Shown here piece after piece: positions 11,321 through 60,151 of a stretch of DNA of 64,000 bases (position 1 is the first letter of the stretch; every line of letters starts with the position of its first letter). Source of the stretch: Halomonadaceae bacterium T82-2 (GTDB taxonomy: Bacteria; Pseudomonadota; Gammaproteobacteria; Pseudomonadales; Halomonadaceae); assembly GCA_001577635.1 (NCBI GenBank), contig LSBP01000010.1:1-64000 (forward strand). Direction: 5' to 3'. The translations under genes were made by a program, and so were the position numbers. The notes beneath the pieces were generated by a model. It searched no databases, had not been told where the DNA came from, and worked only from the letters and a program-made list of their open reading frames with translations.

Positions 11321-12733
11321 ATGACCACCCATCAGGATCTGATCGATCGCGATCGCAAGGTTACCTTCCATGCGTCCACGCACCTGCGTGACTTCGCCCA
11401 CGGCAATGCGCCGGGTCGCGTGATCACCGGTGGCAAGGGCATCAACATCGTCGACAAGGACGGCCGCGAGTTCATCGACGGCTTCGCCGGCCTGTACTGC
11501 GTCAACATCGGCTACGGCCGCACCGAGGTGGCCGAGGCCATCTACAAGCAGGCGCTGGAGCTGGCCTACTACCACACCTACGTGGGCCACTCCAACGAGC
11601 CGCAGATCGCGCTGTCCGAGAAGATCCTCGAGCTGGCCGGCCCGGGCATGTCCAAGGTCTACTACGGCCTCGGCGGCAGCGATGCCAACGAGACCCAGCT
11701 GAAGATCGTGCGTTACTACAACAACGTGCTGGGTCGTCCGCAGAAGAAGAAGGTCATCTCGCGGATGCGCGGCTACCACGGCTCCGGCCTGGCCACTGGT
11801 TCGCTGACCGGCCTCAAGGCATTCCACGATCAGTTCGATCTGCCGATGACCGGCATCCTGCACACCGAGGCGCCGTACTACTACCATCGTGCCCCCGAAC
11901 TGGAAGGCATGAGCGAGCGTGAATTCTCCAAGCATTGCGCCGCCAAGCTCGAGGAGCTGATCCTGGCCGAGGGTCCGGATACCGTCGCCGCCTTCATCGG
12001 CGAGCCGGTGCTGGGCACCGGGGGCATCGTGCCGCCGCCGGAAGGCTACTGGGACGAGATCCAGACCGTGCTGTCCAAGTACGACGTGCTGCTGATCGCC
12101 GACGAGGTGGTCTGTGGCTTCGGCCGTATCGGCAGCGACTTCGGCAGCCATCAGTACGGCATCAAGCCGGACCTGATCACCATCGCCAAGGGGCTGACCA
12201 GTGCCTACCAGCCGCTCTCCGGCGTCATCGTCGGCGACAAGGTCTGGCAGGTGCTCGAGCACGGCACCGGCGAGTTCGGCCCGATCGGCCACGGCTGGAC
12301 CTACTCCGGTCATGCACTGGGCTGTGCGGCCGGCCTGGCCAACCTGGAGATCATCGAGCGCGAAGGGCTGACCCGGAATGCTGCCGAGACCGGCGCCTAC
12401 CTGCAGCAGAAGATGCAGGAAGCCTTCGGCGAGCACCCGATCGTCGGCAACGTGCGTGGCGTGGGCATGCTCGCGGCACTGGAGTTCTCGCCGGCGGCCG
12501 CCAAGCGTGCCCACTTCGATCCGGCCCTGAAGGTCGGGGCGCGCATCAGCTCCGCCGCGCTGGAGGAGAACCTGATCGCCCGTGCCATGCCGCAGGGCGA
12601 CATCCTCGGCTTCGCGCCGCCGCTGGTCGCCACCCGTGACGATGTCGACGAGATCGTCGCCCGCGCCAAGCGTGCCGTGGACAAGGTCGCCGACGAGCTG
12701 ACCAAGTCCGGCGATCTGGGCGACGGGGCATAG
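11321..12733 (+). CDS. doeD: Diaminobutyrate transaminase DoeD
   Basis: A 470-residue class III aminotransferase that converts L-2,4-diaminobutyrate to aspartate semialdehyde, the substrate of DoeC encoded 68 bp upstream. The PLP-binding lysine lies in LITIAKGLTSAYQPLSG, preceded by the Asp motif LLIADEVVCGFGR. AGGAGAG precedes the ATG. The TAG stop codon at 12731-12733 is also the first three bases of a copy of the dispersed palindromic element. Confidence 0.9.
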   Translation: MTTHQDLIDRDRKVTFHASTHLRDFAHGNAPGRVITGGKGINIVDKDGREFIDGFAGLYCVNIGYGRTEVAEAIYKQALELAYYHTYVGHSNEPQIALSEKILELAGPGMSKVYYGLGGSDANETQLKIVRYYNNVLGRPQKKKVISRMRGYHGSGLATGSLTGLKAFHDQFDLPMTGILHTEAPYYYHRAPELEGMSEREFSKHCAAKLEELILAEGPDTVAAFIGEPVLGTGGIVPPPEGYWDEIQTVLSKYDVLLIADEVVCGFGRIGSDFGSHQYGIKPDLITIAKGLTSAYQPLSGVIVGDKVWQVLEHGTGEFGPIGHGWTYSGHALGCAAGLANLEIIEREGLTRNAAETGAYLQQKMQEAFGEHPIVGNVRGVGMLAALEFSPAAAKRAHFDPALKVGARISSAALEENLIARAMPQGDILGFAPPLVATRDDVDEIVARAKRAVDKVADELTKSGDLGDGA

Positions 12734-12872
12734 GTTTGGCTGAAAACGGCCTGCACTCGGCCATACGGCGTTAAAAATCAGCTCAAAATGCTCATTTACA
12801 GCTCGTAAACTCCGCTTTTTCGCTGATTTTTGCCTTGTCTGGCCGTCGTTCGCCGAGTTTTCAGGCAACCTA
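12731..12872 (+). repeat. Dispersed palindromic element, copy 2
   Basis: Complete 142-bp copy. It begins with TAGGTTTGGCTGAAAAC and ends with GTTTTCAGGCAACCTA, imperfect terminal inverted repeats. Inner arms AAAAATCAGC (about 12772-12781) and GCTGATTTTT (about 12821-12830) enclose the conserved core with CATTTAC and GTAAACTCC. The first three bases are the doeD stop codon. Confidence 0.9.
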
Positions 12873-12930
12873 TGCTACATAGCCACGGTTGCTATGCTTC
12901 ACGAAAGACACCGGCCGGTCGGCCGGTAAC

Positions 12931-12955
12931 GACGCCGCAAGTTTCTTGCGGCGTC
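12931..12955 (+). terminator. Strong hairpin downstream of doeD
   Basis: Perfect 11-bp stem (GACGCCGCAAG with CTTGCGGCGTC) with a 3-base TTT loop, 39 bp before the eutB start. No T-run follows, so efficiency is unclear. It probably separates doeCD from eutBC. Confidence 0.6.
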
Positions 12956-12993
12956 GTCCTGTCTGGCCCATGCCGTTCAACAAGGAGTCAACG

Positions 12994-13995
12994 ATGACGC
13001 AGCCGACGCATGGCGTGACCCTGGCCTCGCTCTATCAGGCCCGGGCGCGCATTGCCGGTCAGGTGACGCGCACCCCGCTGATCCGCTCCCAGGCCCTGTC
13101 GCGGCGTTTCGACGCCGAAGTCTTTCTCAAGCTGGAAAACTGCCAGCCCAGTGGGGCCTTCAAGCTGCGGGGCGCGACCAACATGATCCGCGCCCTGCGC
13201 GAGCGGGGCGGCGCCGATGCGCTGTCGCGTGGCGTGACCACCGCTTCCACCGGCAACCACGGGCGCGCCGTGGCGCTGGCGGCCTCGCGCCTTGGGGTGC
13301 CGGCGATCATCTGCCTGTCGAACCTGGTGCCCGATAACAAGGTGCGGGCCATCGAGGCACTGGGCGCCGAGGTCAGGCGTGTCGGCCGGAGCCAGGATGA
13401 AGCCTTCGGCGAGGTCGCGCGGCTGGTCGACGAGGAGGGCATGACGCTGATCCCGCCCTTCGATGACCCGCTGATCGCCAGCGGTCAGGGTACCATCGGG
13501 CTGGAGCTGCTCGAGGATCAGCCCGATCTGGACCGGGTGATCGTCGGTCTGTCCGGGGGCGGGCTGCTGGGCGGCATCGGTGCCGCGATCAAGGGGATTC
13601 GCCCGGCCACCCGGGTCACCGGCATCAGCCTCAGTCAGGGGGCGGCGATGTGGGAGAGCCTCCAGGCCGGGCATCCGGTCGATGTCGAGGAGGTCGAGAG
13701 CCTCGGCGATTCGCTGGGCGGTGGCATCGGCCTGGACAATCGCTGCACCTTCGCGCTGGTTCGTGAGGTCATGGACGATCACTACCAGGTTGCCGAGGCC
13801 GCCATCGCGCGCGCCATGGTCGACATGCTGGCCGACGAGAAGATGCTGGTGGAAGGCGCCGCGGCGGTGGGGCTGGCGGCTCTCGACGAGCACGGCCTGG
13901 ACGTGCGCGGCCAGAAGGTGGCACTGATCGTCTCGGGCAATGGCGTGGCGCTGGAAACCTTTGATCGTGCCCGGGAGCTTGCCGGAACCCGTTGA
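12994..13995 (+). CDS. eutB: Hydroxyectoine utilisation dehydratase EutB
   Basis: A 333-residue fold-type II PLP enzyme of the threonine dehydratase family. The PLP lysine is in CQPSGAFKLRGA, and the phosphate-binding Gly-rich loop is LSGGGLLGGIG. Next to eutC and the doe genes, it fits EutB, proposed to act with EutC (and EutA where present) in channelling hydroxyectoine into the ectoine route. AAGGAG at 12982-12987 sets the ATG. A plain serine/threonine dehydratase is the alternative. No eutA is seen in the window. Confidence 0.8.
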   Translation: MTQPTHGVTLASLYQARARIAGQVTRTPLIRSQALSRRFDAEVFLKLENCQPSGAFKLRGATNMIRALRERGGADALSRGVTTASTGNHGRAVALAASRLGVPAIICLSNLVPDNKVRAIEALGAEVRRVGRSQDEAFGEVARLVDEEGMTLIPPFDDPLIASGQGTIGLELLEDQPDLDRVIVGLSGGGLLGGIGAAIKGIRPATRVTGISLSQGAAMWESLQAGHPVDVEEVESLGDSLGGGIGLDNRCTFALVREVMDDHYQVAEAAIARAMVDMLADEKMLVEGAAAVGLAALDEHGLDVRGQKVALIVSGNGVALETFDRARELAGTR

Positions 13996-26284: not shown

Positions 26285-26449
26285 GCAGGCAGACTCCAGT
26301 GGTTGGCCGCCGTGAACGGCGGCCAGGGGTGGTTGATGATCCTGAGCGAGAGCGAATGGGGTCGAGAGCGTCGCACCCTGTCGATTGCCGTGGCGCGCCG
26401 TCGGGAATGAATTCCCTCCCACGAGGCCTATCGCGAATCGTTGGTGGAA

Positions 26450-26472
26450 ACAAAAGCGCAGCCCGCTTTTGT
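26450..26472 (-). terminator. Intrinsic terminator-like hairpin downstream of gabD
   Basis: Stem ACAAAAGC/GCTTTTGT, 8 bp, with a 7-base loop and TT following on the minus strand. It lies after gabD and the repeat copy, before gabT. The rest of 26285-26449 holds only the hairpin at 26304-26325. Confidence 0.5.
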
Positions 26473-26476
26473 CCCG

Positions 26477-26619
26477 GGGTTTGTCTGAAAAGTCGGCGAG
26501 CGACGATCAGGCAAGGCAAAAATCAGCGAAAAAGCGGAGTTTACGGAGTGTAAATGAGCATTTTGAGCTGATTTTTAACGCAGCATGATCGAGCGCAGCC
26601 AGTTTTCAGACAAAGCCTA
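26477..26619 (-). repeat. Dispersed palindromic element, copy 3
   Basis: Complete 143-bp copy on the minus strand. Read on that strand it begins TAGGCTTTGTCTGAAAAC and ends CTTTTCAGACAAACCCC. The TAG is the gabD stop codon. Inner arms AAAAATCAGC and GCTGATTTTT are intact. It is the copy most similar to copy 1. Confidence 0.9.
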
Positions 26620-28065
26620 GAGGCCGCCGAGGCAGGCGTACTTCATCTCGGTAAACTCCTCGAGGCCGTGATGCGAGCCCTCGCGGCCCAGCCCCGATTC
26701 CTTGATGCCACCGAAGGGGGCCAGCTCGGTGGAGATGAGCCCTTCGTTGACGCCCACCATGCCGTACTCCAGGGCTTCCAGGGTGTGGAAGATGCGCCGG
26801 TAGTCGCGGCTGTAGAAGTAGGCGGCCAGGCCGAAGGGGGTGTCGTTGGCCAGGGCGATGGCTTCCGCGTCGTTGTCGAAGCGGAACACCGGGGCCAGCG
26901 GGCCGAAGGTCTCTTCCTCGGCCACGGCCATGTCGCGGGTGGCGTCGGCGATCACCGTGGGCGTGAAGAACTGCGCGCCCGCGGGGTGGGGCTCGCCTCC
27001 GCACAGCAGGCGGGCGCCCTTTTCCAGCGCGTCGCCGACGTGACGCCGGACCTTGTCCACCGCGGCGGCGTTGATGAGCGGGCCGATCTGCACGCCCGGC
27101 TCGCGGCCGTCGCCGACCTTGAGGGCGGTCACGCGGGCGGTCAGCTTGTCGAGGAAGGCATCGTAGACGCCCGACTGCACCAGCAAGCGATTGGTGCACA
27201 CGCAGGTCTGCCCGGCGTTGCGGAACTTGGCGGCGATCGCGCCGTCGACGGCGGCGTCCAGGTCGGCATCGTCGAAGACGATGAACGGCGCATTGCCGCC
27301 CAGCTCCATGGCGGTCTTCTTGACCGTGCCCGCGCACTGGGCCAGCAGGGTCTTGCCGACCGGGGTGGAACCGGTGAACGAGACCTTGCGCACCCGCGGG
27401 TCGGTGGTCAGGACCTCGCCGATCGCCGCGGGCTGCTCGCTGGTGACCACATTGAGCACCCCGGCCGGGATGCCGGCCTGCTCGGCCAGGCGGGCCAGCG
27501 CCAGTGCGGTCAGCGGGGTCGCCTCGGCGGGCTTGATCACCACCGTGCAGCCGGCGGCGATCGCGGGGGCGCACTTGCGGGTGATCATCGCCAGCGGAAA
27601 GTTCCACGGCGTGATGGCCGCGACCACGCCGACCGGCTCGCGGGTGACCAGCATGCGCTTGTCCGGGCTCTGCATGGGCAGCGTCTCGCCGCTCAGCGTC
27701 TTGGCCTGCTCGGCGAAGAATTCGACGAACGAGGCGCCGTAGGTCACCTCGCCCCGGGACTCGGCGAGCGGCTTGCCCTGCTCGCGCGTCATCAGCTCGG
27801 CGAGCGTCTCGCCGGCGTCGACGATGGCGTCGAACCAGGCCCGCAGCCGTCGGCTGCGCTCCTTCACCGGGGTGGCGCGCCAGGCCGGTAGCGCCCGGTG
27901 GGCGGCGGCCACGGCGTCGCGGGCGTCGGCGGCGTCGAGATCGGCGACCTGCGCCAGCGTCTCGCCGCTGGCGGGGTCGGTGACCGGGAAGCGGCGCCGT
28001 CCGGGGCGCCACTCGCCGCCGATGCAGGCATCGACGGGCTGACCTTGGGTGAACAGGTCGATCAT
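26617..28065 (-). CDS. gabD: Succinate-semialdehyde dehydrogenase (NADP+)
   Basis: A 482-residue aldehyde dehydrogenase that oxidises succinate semialdehyde (and glutarate semialdehyde) after GabT. Motifs are TPWNFPLAMITRK, FTGSTPVGKT, MELGGNAPF (Glu base) and catalytic Cys in NAGQTCVCTNR. Length equals E. coli GabD. It follows the permease gene by 13 bp on the same strand. Its TAG stop is part of the adjacent repeat, and its C-terminus has the normal family length, so the repeat has not truncated it. Confidence 0.9.
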   Translation of the reverse strand: MIDLFTQGQPVDACIGGEWRPGRRRFPVTDPASGETLAQVADLDAADARDAVAAAHRALPAWRATPVKERSRRLRAWFDAIVDAGETLAELMTREQGKPLAESRGEVTYGASFVEFFAEQAKTLSGETLPMQSPDKRMLVTREPVGVVAAITPWNFPLAMITRKCAPAIAAGCTVVIKPAEATPLTALALARLAEQAGIPAGVLNVVTSEQPAAIGEVLTTDPRVRKVSFTGSTPVGKTLLAQCAGTVKKTAMELGGNAPFIVFDDADLDAAVDGAIAAKFRNAGQTCVCTNRLLVQSGVYDAFLDKLTARVTALKVGDGREPGVQIGPLINAAAVDKVRRHVGDALEKGARLLCGGEPHPAGAQFFTPTVIADATRDMAVAEEETFGPLAPVFRFDNDAEAIALANDTPFGLAAYFYSRDYRRIFHTLEALEYGMVGVNEGLISTELAPFGGIKESGLGREGSHHGLEEFTEMKYACLGGL

Positions 28066-53319: not shown

Positions 53320-56300
53320 GGTTATCTCCGGGTCGGGCGATTGGCCAGGGGCATGCCGCGCGCGCCCGACCTCGAGCACACGGCATACCCTTGGTCTCGC
53401 CAACCGGAGTCGGTCGCCTGCACCACGACACGGTGGTGTCGAGTTTGTTGATGCAGGCCTCCTCGATGTCAGGGTCGAGGATCGGCTACTCCCCAAAGGA
53501 GCGCTGATCCTAAAACATCGTTTGGCAAAATGATAGGCGGGGTGTCGCCGGGAGCGTGCCGGGTGTCGGTGCCGCGCTCCCGGGCCGAGATGCCCGGGAG
53601 AAGCCGGAGATGGCTCAGGTGAGGCCGGTCGCGATACCGATGGGCTCGTACCGACGGACTCGGCCCGTTGTGCCAGCCAGGGCATCAGCATTTCCAGCGG
53701 CATGGGCTTGGCGAACAGATAGCCCTGGAAGGTATGGCAGCCGAGCGACAGCAGGTAGCCATGCTGCTCCTCGGTTTCGACCCCTTCCGCCACGATCTTC
53801 AGGTTCAGATCCCGAGCCAGGGTGATGACGCTGCGGCAGATGGCGGCATCCTTGTCGCTGGTCGCCACGTCGGTGACGAAGCTGCGATCGATCTTGATCT
53901 TGTCGATGGGCAGGTCGCGCAGATAGCTGAGGCTGGAGAAGCCGGTGCCGAAGTCGTCGATGGCGGTGCTGACGCCCATGCCGCGCAGCGCGTTGAGGGT
54001 GTCGATGGCGCCGCCGGTATCGTGCATCAGGATGCCTTCGGTCAACTCCAGCTCCAGGTGGCGAGCGCTCAATCCCGTAGCGGCCAGGGTGTCGCGAAGG
54101 GCGGTGAGGAAGTTGGCGCGGTGGAACTGCAGCGGAGAAAGGTTGACGGCCATCCGGCCGTGGAGAAGCCCCTCGTCGACCAGCCGACAGGCGTCTTGAC
54201 AGGCCTGGCGCATCACCCAGCGGCTCAGGGCGATGATTTGCCCGGTTTCCTCGGCCAAGGGGATGAAGACACCCGGCGAGATCACCCCCTCGGTGGGGTG
54301 GTGCCAGCGAACCAGGGCCTCCAGGCTTTCGACGCGGCCATGGCGGTCGAGAAGCGGCTGGTAGTGCAGGCTGAGTTGGTGTTGCTCGATGGCCTCCTGG
54401 AGCTGGGTGCGCAGGGTGACGCGCCCGCTCTGCCGGCTGTCGAGGTCCACGGTATAGCGCTCCCAGGCGTTGCGTCCCTGCTGCTTGGCCTTGTACATGG
54501 CCATGTCGGCATGTTGCAGCAGTTCTTCCGGTTCATGCAGCGGCCCGGTGTGGGTCGCGATGCCGATGCTCGCCGAGATGTGCAGTTCGTGCGGGCCGAC
54601 TCGATGCGGCTTGTTGAGTTCGTCGAGCAGGCGCCCTGCAACATCCTCGGCTTCCTCGGGCGTGTTGAGGTCGGGCAGCAGCAGCACGAACTCATCGCCG
54701 CCCAGGCGGGCGAGGGTGTCGCTGGTGCGCAGGCTATGCGTCAGGATACGAGCCACGCTGACCAGCAGCTCGTCGCCCACCTTGTGGCCGAGGGTGTCGT
54801 TGATCGGCTTGAAGCCGTCGAGGTCGATGAACAGCACGGCGACGGTGCGCCCCTTGCGCGCGGCGAAGTCCACGTCCTGGCTCAGCCGTTCGCTGAACAG
54901 GGCGCGATTGGCGAGCCCGGTGAGCGCGTCGTGGGTGGCCTGGTAGGCCAGCTTGCGTTCCTGTTCACGATGTTCGGTGACGTCGGTCATGATACCGACG
55001 AAATGGGTGATCCCCTGGTCGGCATCGCGTACCGGCGACATGAGCAGTTGGTTCCAGTAGGGGCTGCCATCGGCCTTGTGGGCACGGAAGGTTGTGGTCA
55101 GCGTCTCGCCTTGCTCGATGGTCTGGCGAATCGCGGTGGCGATGTCGCTGGTTGCCGCGTGGCCGGTCAGGGCATGGGGTGGGCGGCCGAGAACATCCTG
55201 TTTCTGGTGGCCGGTGATGGCGGTGAAGGCCGGGTTGATATAGGCCACGGGATACCCGGCGGTCCGGGCGTCGAGGATGACGATCGCGTTGCTGCTGGCT
55301 TCCACGCTGCGCTCCAGCACCCGCATGCGTTCTTCCGAGCTGACGCGCGCGCTGATGTCCTTGGCGATGCCGAAGACGCCGTCCACCGTGCCGTTGACGA
55401 TAATGGGCACCATGACGACTTCGAGATCCTGCACCGTCCTGGCATCACGCCAGAAACGCAGGGTGTAGGTGTCGGTACGGCCGCTGGCGGCGTGTCGGAA
55501 GGCGGCTTCGGTACGCCGGATATCCGCCTTCGAGCAGGCCGGCTCGCAAATCAGGGTGCGGAAGTGGCGCCCCAGCAGCTTGTGTTCCGGCACGCCCACG
55601 ATCGCCTCGGTGATGGGGTTGATGGCGGTGTAGGCGCCGTCGAGATTGTAGGCGAAGGCGGCATCGGGGTGGCGGGTGAACAGGGAGCGAAACCGCTGCT
55701 CGCTGTAGTCGAGCGCCTGGGCCTGCGCCGCACGCACGGCGAGCAGGGCGCGGCTCAGGATCAACTGATGACTGAACAGCAGCCCCAGCAGACCGAAGAT
55801 GAACGGCAGGGTGCCCTCCAGGCTGCTCAGGGGCATCGGCCCATCGAGCACCGTGAGCGTGAAGACCGGGCCGCCGGGGAGCGGGATTTGCCGGGCGGCG
55901 AACGTCTGGGGAGTGATGCTGTTGCTCCAGTCCCGGTCGGAAAGAGTGGCCCACGGCTGGCTGTCGAGCATGAAATGGAGGGTAAAGCCGCCGGTATCGA
56001 CATGGGCCTGCAGTTGCACGATATCGCGCATGTCCAGGGTGGCCAGCATGGTGCCGACCCCACCGTTCAGGGTGATGGCGAGCAGGCCCAGATACGGTCG
56101 CTCCGGGTCCGGAAAACGCCAGAAGGTCGTGCTGCTGAGTTCGTTCTGTCGATGTAACCAGCTTTGTGTGGCCGGTTGCGCCAGCTGCGCCATCAGCCAC
56201 TGCAGGTCCTCGGTAGAACGGCCGATGCGCCAGTTCTGGGCGCCGTTGGCGGCCAGATAGGCCATGGCCTTCAGGCTGGGTTCATCGCTCAGGTAGGTGC

Positions 56301-58473: not shown

Positions 58474-58651
58474 ATAAGCTTTGTACGAAAAGTCGGCGAG
58501 CGAAGGAAAGACAAGGCAAAAATCGGCGAAAAAGCGGACTGGGCTCGCACGCGAGTTTACGGGGTGTAAATGAGCATTTTGATCGGACTCGCGCCCGAGC
58601 CGGTTTTTAACGCCGTATTGCCGAGCGCAGGCAGTTTTCGGACAAAGCCTA
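58474..58651 (-). repeat. Dispersed palindromic element, copy 4 (extended)
   Basis: 178-bp copy on the minus strand. It begins TAGGCTTTGTCCGAAAAC, its TAG being the permease stop codon at 58651-58649, and ends CTTTTCGTACAAAGCTTA. Compared with the other copies it has an added GC-rich segment of about 17-18 bases on each arm (one with GGCTCGGGCGCGAG, the other with CTCGCGTGCGAGCC). The two additions are largely complementary, lengthening the stem. Confidence 0.9.
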
Positions 58652-60151
58652 GCGGCTGCACGGATCGTCCATCACCACCTCGCGAGGCCGGTAACGCCGC
58701 GCCAGGGCGTCGACGGCGATGTTCAGCCCGGCGGTGACCAGCAGCAGGAAGAACGCCTGATCGAACATCAGATACTGAAAGCTCGAATCGATGTGAAAGC
58801 CCAGGGTGGCCACACCCAGCATGCCGAGCAGGGCGGTCTCGCGGATGATCACCTCGGCGCGGTAGAAGACCAGGGCGAGCAGGCCGGGGTAGATACGCGG
58901 CAGCAGCTCGTAGGCGTAGCGGCCGCCTGCGGGAAGCCCCGGCATACCGGGTTCGATGTTGTCGGCGTGGCGGGCGGCGAGAAAGGCGATCAGCGCGCCG
59001 TTGTGCAGCGCCAAGGCCAGCCAGGCGGGCAGCATCGAGGGGCCGAGCAGCAGCAGGAAGATGAACGCCAGCATCAGCTCCGGCGTCGAGCGCAGCCCGA
59101 CCAGCAGGGCACGCCCGCCCAGCCGCGTGGCCGGATTGCCGAAGTGGCGGCTGGCCAGTGGCCACAGCAGCAGCGCGATGATCAGCGCGCCCACGGTGCC
59201 CATCAGTCCCAGCAGCAGGGTGTTGCCGATCGCCGGACCGAGATCGGGGATATTGCCCAGCCAGGCCATGAGACCCGCCCAATCGCCATCGAGCAGCGGT
59301 GCCGGCCATAGATCGTGACTGACGAAGCGCCACAGCAGGCCGCTATCGACATGCGGCCAGGGGCCGAGCAGGAACAGGCTGCCGAGTGTCAGCAGCGGCA
59401 GCAGGCGGCGGTGCCCCCAGAAACCGATCGTGCCGATCAGCAGGTAGAACAGCCAGAGCAGCGCCCCGGCCTGATGATAATGGCCTTCGCGGAAGGCGCT
59501 TTCCAGATGGAAGCCCAGGGTCGGCAGGCCGACGAATCCTAGTAGCACGCTGGCGCGTAGCGAGCACTCGAAGCGGTAGCGGGTGTAGGCGGCCAGCCGT
59601 TCCCAGGCCAGCGGCAGTTCCGCATAGATGAAGCGCGACAGGCGGCCGACGCCGGGCGGCAGGCTGTCGGCGGCGTCACGCGGGGTCTGCTCGAGAATCT
59701 CGGCATAGACCTTGGCGAAGATGCCGGCGTAGGGCACGGCCAGCGCCGCCAGGGCGGTGACGGCCGAGAAGCCGAAGACCTGCAGGAACAGCAGCGCCCA
59801 GAACAGCTCGTGGATGGCGCGCACGAAGGCGCAGGCGGTGCGCACCAGCCGCGAGCGGAAGAATACCAGCGCCAGCGGAAAGCCCAGCAGCACGCCGAGC
59901 AGGGTCCCCCACAGGGCCACGCTGACCGTCAGGCCGATGGCCTGGAGCGGCGAGCTCAGCTCGCGCCAATGGGGCAGAGCCAGTCCTGTCGCCATGCGGC
60001 TCAGCTCCGCCCAGGGGTCGTGAGCGACCACCGACAGGTCGGCGAAGGGCAGCAGCACGATGCACAGGGCGACCAGCACCAGCGAGCGTCGGGCCAGCCG
60101 CAGCCCGGGCGAGTCGCCGTGCAGCATGCCCGGAGCGGTGGGTTCAGCCAT
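58649..60151 (-). CDS. Phosphonate-type ABC permease, two PhnE domains fused
   Basis: A 500-residue inner membrane protein made of two PhnE-like permease domains (about 1-255 and 256-500). Each carries a coupling loop with the family's ending (SVLLGFVGLPTLGFHLESAF and ALLGMLGVATLGFHIDSSF). It completes a PhnD-PhnC-PhnE type importer. It overlaps the ATPase gene by eight bases. Its TAG stop belongs to the repeat element. No phosphonate breakdown genes are seen, so the substrate may be phosphonate, phosphite or phosphate. Confidence 0.83.
   Translation of the reverse strand: MAEPTAPGMLHGDSPGLRLARRSLVLVALCIVLLPFADLSVVAHDPWAELSRMATGLALPHWRELSSPLQAIGLTVSVALWGTLLGVLLGFPLALVFFRSRLVRTACAFVRAIHELFWALLFLQVFGFSAVTALAALAVPYAGIFAKVYAEILEQTPRDAADSLPPGVGRLSRFIYAELPLAWERLAAYTRYRFECSLRASVLLGFVGLPTLGFHLESAFREGHYHQAGALLWLFYLLIGTIGFWGHRRLLPLLTLGSLFLLGPWPHVDSGLLWRFVSHDLWPAPLLDGDWAGLMAWLGNIPDLGPAIGNTLLLGLMGTVGALIIALLLWPLASRHFGNPATRLGGRALLVGLRSTPELMLAFIFLLLLGPSMLPAWLALALHNGALIAFLAARHADNIEPGMPGLPAGGRYAYELLPRIYPGLLALVFYRAEVIIRETALLGMLGVATLGFHIDSSFQYLMFDQAFFLLLVTAGLNIAVDALARRYRPREVVMDDPCSR

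Follow-up and report, generated by a model that had tools for sequence, protein, structure and literature searches.

Hairpin copies at the 3' ends of window genes

The window (the whole 64,000-nt stretch of Halomonadaceae bacterium T82-2 DNA analyzed here) carries four copies of a near-palindromic element of about 143 bp with inverted ends, which the initial annotation had reported and which we confirmed at positions 1–136, 12731–12872, 26477–26619 and 58474–58651. All four belong to one subfamily, here called A-type. Copy 1 (plus strand, core at 12–119) ends in ...CAGACAGTGCCTA on its 3' side and lacks its 5' end because the contig begins within the element (G000:C53:1-129; G000 is the window's own genome, G011 its nearest relative, and other G and L numbers denote compared genomes and loci). 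It matches copy 2 over 128 nt at 90% identity and is 94% complementary to copy 3 over 129 nt. Copy 2 is complete and lies on the plus strand, with a conserved, covarying core at 12750–12857 (121.8 bits with R1, a core model built from 29 copies). Copy 3, likewise complete, and copy 4 lie on the minus strand, with R1 cores at 26492–26599 (124.9 bits) and 58492–58631 (63.6 bits), respectively. The inverted ends TAGG... and ...CCTA are as first described, except that the 3' end of copy 3 is without its terminal CCTA. The arms had also been called conserved; those of copy 4 read AAAAACCGGC/GCCGATTTTT and both hold matched insertions of ~16 nt, so the arms are not a single fixed sequence. The hairpin of copy 4 is lengthened symmetrically by these insertions, suggesting palindrome-templated change.

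Folded as RNA, copy 3 reached −53.3 kcal/mol (shuffled mean −26.2, z = −8.7), with 0/200 shuffles equally low. Searches with 4227 Rfam models at gathering scores gave no match at any of the four copies, and none appeared over 12600–13000 up to E 1. Elsewhere in the window, a yybP-ykoY manganese riboswitch was found at 53332–53499 on the minus strand (56.2 bits), and a REP-like sequence, read by eye, adjoins copy 3 at 26400–26450.

In-frame TAG stops at 12731–12733 (plus strand), 26617–26619 and 58649–58651 (both minus) close ORFs of 470, 482 and 500 codons. In all three complete copies the leading TAG of the element is this stop, with the 5' end of the element at the gene, just as had been noted for doeD, gabD and a phosphonate-type permease. 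The product of 11321–12733 passes an aminotransferase-type subfamily model described merely as 'hypothetical protein', and we retain the earlier name doeD because the neighboring next gene is EutB-like. The 26617–28065 product scores above the cut-off of a succinate-semialdehyde dehydrogenase (SSADH) model (gabD), and that of 58649–60151 reaches 209.8 bits, slightly below the PhnE cut-off of 216.7 (PhnE-like permease). The doeD stop, TAG from bases 1–3 of copy 2, is TGA in G011, G001 and G003, and the protein has the same last residue (GDGA) in G011 and G001. The gabD stop at the 5' end of copy 3 is likewise TAG in G011, and the permease stop at the 5' end of copy 4 is TGA in G011 and G001. 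Different hairpins occupy the stop of one gene in different genomes: gabD in G011 bears a different-armed hairpin with the same kind of core, doeD in G004 and G013 has yet another hairpin behind TGA, and the gene at L003, which we take to be dut from reading its protein end by eye, has an A-type copy in antisense in G000 and an A-like one in sense in G011.

A GC-rich hairpin, read by eye, lies 3' of copy 2 at 12931–12955 (plus strand) and is common to element-free G011, so copy 2 entered between the doeD stop and this hairpin. The element had been suggested to end transcripts, and its strong hairpin and the TTTTT in its 3' arm resemble an intrinsic terminator. However, the T-run lies within the stem and none follows the hairpin, a scan of copy 2 (the sole copy scanned) returned no forward-strand terminator, the native hairpin 3' of doeD was kept, and the same gene stands without the element in close relatives. 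A transcript-ending role is thus unsupported, and we consider a terminator highly improbable.

Structure, distribution and mobility of the family

A-type copies, about 143 bp long, run from TA followed by GGCTTTGTCTGAAAA through to TTTTCRGACAAACCC followed by TA, with variants, their ends reading TAGGC.. and ..GCCTA or CCCTA. Other subfamilies in the same genomes have the middle 108 nt in common and differ in their outer arms (e.g. B, GAGGGTGTTTACAAA, L025-L029; C, GGAAACACTG, L467-L469). The core is strongly covarying. Among 30 diverse cores, 94.1% of cells were paired and 30/34 pairs had both bases altered in one or more copies, counts that are biased towards the R1 structure because the core alignment (A3) was fitted to it; RNAalifold on an unfitted alignment (A2) returned compensated changes in 22/34 pairs. 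The covariation score was 0.607, compared with 0.185 for shuffles and at most 0.116 for slid controls, and 0/500 shuffles scored as high. At two loci (L167, G000:C20:39094-39145; L168, G011:C1:823727-823778), 52-bp derivatives consist of the outer arms joined at direct CGCTCG repeats.

BLAST with copy 3 returned 34 matches in its own genome, 15 spanning at least 138 of the 143 positions and the others partial or the self-match. Across the genus, matches were found in 14/14 genomes (own included), with 6 to 41 in each. The R1 core matched 46 times in G000, 40 times in G011 and 33 times in G013, and it was detected in 61 of 143 genomes drawn evenly from the class (own included; class taken as Gammaproteobacteria from the host). 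Sixteen plasmid records matched (13 Pseudomonas, 1 Halomonas, 1 'Candidatus' Fukatsuia and 1 Haliscomenobacter). A phage origin was rejected, with 0 matches among 50,697 phage records. Four G000 contigs (C53, C36, C51 and C4) start or stop inside near-identical copies, so the assembly was probably interrupted by the repeat. We interpret the window copies as belonging to the A-type subfamily within a large superfamily of MITE-like, non-coding mobile hairpins. This reading is part of an overall explanation that we judge fairly probable.

Like MITEs, the copies are short, multicopy, bounded by inverted ends and without an internal gene. The two flanks of each of 26 own-genome copies were joined and sought in G011, and the same was done for 8 copies from G011 and 13 from G009, with G000 and G010 as targets. 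An element-free site was found in 25 of 29 pairings of close relatives (one, L019, with a small remnant in G011); the pairings not counted as empty were L003 (two, other element in G011), L104 (element end remaining in G010) and L014 (unplaced). The cleanest empty site is that of L099, an A-type copy nested in another repeat, whose intact G010 counterpart reads ...GACTAACG... with CTAA at the site. This presence and absence between close relatives bears out the earlier suggestion of a mobile miniature element. The repeat entered by the A-type copy is itself short, has GGGYCTGTTGACGTTTCAT-like ends and occurs at ~20 places in G010 (L099/L100 flanks); a further short repeat, flanking L002, has ~20 matches in G011.

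No autonomous IS with matching ends was recognized in G000, G011, G007 and G001 (139 TIR matches). Only three inverted TIR pairs lay 300–6000 bp apart. In two of these, one end also has a closer partner at the spacing of an element; the third (G007:C11) comprises diverged ends 4.5 kb apart. The 20 TIR stretches that were read proved to be element-length pairs, 52-bp derivatives and solo ends. On a Pseudomonas amygdali plasmid (NZ_CP123227.1, L513), an IS630-family IS occupies the TA that borders an A-like copy on the right. It was rejected as a parent: with its own different ends and its insertion in TA at the copy edge, it is a neighbor.

Position at stop codons and probable exchange of the stop

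Exact position was scored for 113 A-type copies (136 loci minus 5 orthologous duplicates, 4 copies cut by contig ends and 14 scoring <160). A gene stop falls exactly at an element end in 48/113 (33 at the 5' end and 15 at the 3' end) and at neither end in 65/113. A stop coincides with the 5' end in 32 of the 79 copies in which that end reads TAG or TAA, compared with 0 of the 17 in which it reads TAC (p = 5e-4); 6 of these 17 are seated on a stop by their 3' end. Among the copies with a stop-reading 5' end, those on a sense stop outnumber those on an antisense stop by 32 to 6. The G000 copies lying exactly on an antisense stop are found at TAG/TAA-type sites (L002, L003) or, for L005, at a TCG/TAG site.

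Across all subfamilies in three genomes, a sense stop lies at most 30 nt 5' of the core in 70/117 copies, whereas an antisense stop lies at most 30 nt 3' of it in 10/117. These 117 copies represent 46/46 listed R1 matches in G000, 39/40 in G011 and 32/33 in G013, the weakest being omitted from the latter two, and G000 copies at contig ends (2 without 5' flank, 2 without 3' flank) were scored as misses. By genome, sense-stop copies amount to 28/46 (G000), 29/39 (G011) and 13/32 (G013), with sense:antisense counts of 28:4, 29:1 and 13:5, the last not significant (p = 0.1). When shared copies are counted once, dropping 22 copies, 52 sense and 9 antisense remain out of 95 (p = 2e-8). The sense excess is weaker outside these genomes, among 46 copies taken from 19 others of the class, where the count is blurred by spurious ORFs: 25 vs 14 at ORFs of at least 60 codons (p = 0.11), 21:10 at ≥100 codons (p = 0.07) and 20:7 at ≥150 (p = 0.02).

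The 70 vs 10 split supports the initial annotation's proposal that the element targets, or is retained at, 3' gene ends in the orientation of its gene. Its wording that copies always lie at the stop in that orientation was too strong, A-type copies being mostly off exact stops (65/113); even so, their orientation departs from random. Of the two outcomes it had named as counting against the proposal, copies lying away from stops are thus seen for the A-type and random orientation is not.

Of the non-coding YTRR sites, 25% are stops in the window and 10% in 280 kb of G011; of the non-coding TA or YTAR sites in sampled sequence, only 2–19% are. These shares may be underestimates because the gene caller, a codon-usage script trained on the window, misses atypical genes. 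The share of copies on stops exceeds that of the YTRR motif; therefore retention or another preference must contribute. One alternative is an ordinary MITE mobilized by an IS630- or IS5-like transposase with a 2-bp TA duplication. GC-rich coding DNA contains few TA sites, and on this account survivors would therefore cluster at TAA/TAG stops and intergenic TAs, and the coincidence with stops would be a by-product. The 2–19% share of stops among TA/YTAR sites speaks against it when 48/113 copies are on exact stops, and it predicts neither the sense bias (32 vs 6) nor the seat of other subfamilies behind TGA.

Element-free sisters reveal which stop preceded the element. At nine A-type stop sites with such a sister in the G000/G011 pair, the sister reads TGA at six (L004, L012, L013, L021, L044, L058), TAG at two (L002, L057) and a sense codon followed by TGA at L005. 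Flanks of L021 lie ~2 kb apart in G011, making this an element-free sister and not a simple empty site. Left out of the nine were L001 and L003 (sister with another element), L007, L010 and L011 (element in both) and L018 (TGA in both). The stop differs at 7/9 element sites vs 1/58 other G000/G011 ortholog pairs (Fisher p = 3e-7), the 58 being 61 pairs without the element motif in either genome minus doeD, L005 and L002, which are element sites and were removed by hand. At L044, TGA is found in the G000 sister and in the G001, G003 and G006 orthologs, and the old TGA is still legible right of the element. Since element-free sisters carry TGA and background stops are conserved, the element appears usually to have entered TGA, its own TAG taking over. 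Judged from these comparisons, the native stop is probably replaced by the TAG of the element upon A-type insertion. A TAG-containing target, as had been suggested, is not needed (sister TGA at 6/9, TAG at 2/9), the element bringing its own TAG. For an ordinary MITE, the TGA sisters would reflect stop codon turnover, which is hard to reconcile with element-free stops differing in 1/58 pairs but element sites in 7/9. The TGA-to-TAG swap is an A-type matter: 12 ortholog pairs marked as lying next to an element have TGA in both, and other subfamilies keep TGA.

Sister proteins at 14 stop-type sites in the G000/G011 pair share the last residue, except for offsets of 1 (L005, L011). Distant orthologs show offsets of 1 (L005, L011, L044) or 2 (L001) and divergent tails at L004, L057 and L058. 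Gene truncation by insertion was rejected: compared with the sister, the protein is at most one residue off its native end.

A functional 3'-UTR RNA element, acting as an mRNA stabilizer or RNase target and kept behind stops by selection however it arrived, would fit the sense bias with its tight spacing to the stop and the strong structure covariation, and also the recurrence at the same gene in G000/G011/G013 with altered arms (L460, L476, L311; L462, L457, L320; flanks only). Covariation, however, is equally expected if the DNA hairpin is a transposition substrate, and many copies are missing from the sister genome. We regard this RNA role as an unlikely explanation.

Insertion model and related elements

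We hypothesize that the element is a trans-mobilized hairpin that inserts into YTRR stop-like sites with a swap of the stop, which we consider the best explanation and a reasonably probable one. An enzyme acting in trans, presumably a transposase, would move the element into stop-like Y-T-R-R targets (TAA, TAG or TGA after a pyrimidine), with a predicted exact cut at YT^RR. The A-type start is A-G-G (T-A-G-G counting the TA), and the T of the old stop together with the element's AG would form a new TAG. The last residue of the protein would be unchanged and the old stop shifted ~145 nt downstream. Because TGA is non-palindromic, insertion there would be one-way, whereas YTAR could be entered both ways, and a sense bias is thus predicted. 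If the element is transcribed, its hairpin is expected in the 3' untranslated RNA of the gene. We propose that copies persist at 3' gene ends because the gene stays intact; they may be retained because they are harmless, or because they are useful for RNA stability.

The junctions bear on both this trans-mobilized hairpin and the ordinary MITE. Left junctions read CTA or TTA in 93/113 A-type copies and right junctions TAA or TAG in 74/113, as an ordinary MITE would have them; the right junctions fit plain TA duplication as in ERIC. Non-stop empty sites are mostly single TA (L099, L107, L031, L036, L059, L100; not L006, L062, L061), and a table in PMC2229807 marks ERIC, Correia and RUP with target duplication and terminal TA. 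A YT^RR cut with an AGG start explains L044 and L010 without duplication. At L013, L006 and L058 the right side is TA where the sister has TG, which the cut does not predict without duplication, and at least one further change is needed there. TGA flanks L018 and some B- and C-type copies on either side, amounting to a 3-bp duplication. With the stop comparisons above, we think an ordinary MITE possible and rather doubtful.

If the trans-mobilized hairpin with its stop swap is correct, this is a mobile element with built-in host safety: a jumping sequence that gives a gene an RNA hairpin and does no damage to it, since the codon at which it inserts leaves the protein intact and a replacement stop is supplied. 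Stop codon evolution would also be affected, these insertions converting TGA to TAG, and the many natural present/absent pairs would allow the effects of 3'-UTR hairpins on mRNA to be tested. Integron attC sites are likewise imperfect hairpins directly behind stop codons; in contrast, the window hairpin moves without the gene, and by eye we saw none of the usual attC motifs.

The initial annotation knew of no described family with this property, which was too strong a statement. Termini of GTAG-REPs, which are likewise palindromic and extragenic, often supply the TAG stop of flanking ORFs (PMC3733652), so the property has a precedent. REPs are described as 20–40 bp long; they carry a GTAG or CGTC tag and use RAYT transposases, whereas the window family measures about 110–180 bp, with two inverted ends and no GTAG tag. 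In the portions of the ERIC and GTAG-REP literature examined, we found no TGA-to-TAG swap shown by element-free sisters. Correia/NEMIS, RUP and YPAL elements, likened here by description, are of similar size and form hairpins, several with TA ends (PMC2229807, table), and the excerpts examined describe no stop-codon seat for them.

ERIC (also IRU or RU-1; 127 bp), likewise a palindromic MITE of similar size with TA ends, appears from sequence likeness to be the nearest known family, with weak scores. In both, an apical stem is followed by CTCC (TTTAC..GTAAACTCC in the window family, CTTAC..GTAAGCTCC in ERIC), whereas the outer arms do not look related. A TA duplication is described for ERIC in PMC2759123 and PMC2229807, and PMC10969869 reports the element for Enterobacteriaceae and Vibrionaceae, a narrower host range than that of the window family. 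PMC2759123 gives the transfer mode of ERIC as not elucidated as of 2007. Our hypothesis, if true, would tie ERIC to a much wider family. In its broadest and more tentative form, ERIC could be one branch of a gammaproteobacteria-wide superfamily of mobile hairpins that recognize stop codons in the sense orientation (YT^RR) and whose ends rebuild the stop, making insertion harmless by design and delivering a structured mRNA 3' end. ERIC among Gammaproteobacteria genomes is reportedly the subject of a paper by Zo (2011), cited in PMC10969869.

Model R2, into which no known ERIC was put, matched ERIC exactly at 5/5 E. coli loci with weak scores of 15.2–19.5 bits (E 5e-4 to 0.0099 in 11.5 kb; the E-values are rough). 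Seven loci had been retrieved, two of them duplicating the ybhI locus. On 280 kb of G011 the R2 maximum was 13.3 bits, obtained with default filters compared with no filters on the ERIC loci, and R1 gave 11.5 bits (E 0.041) on one ERIC locus. At E. coli ybhI (L507, L508), the ERIC copy starts 1 base past the TAA stop of the gene.
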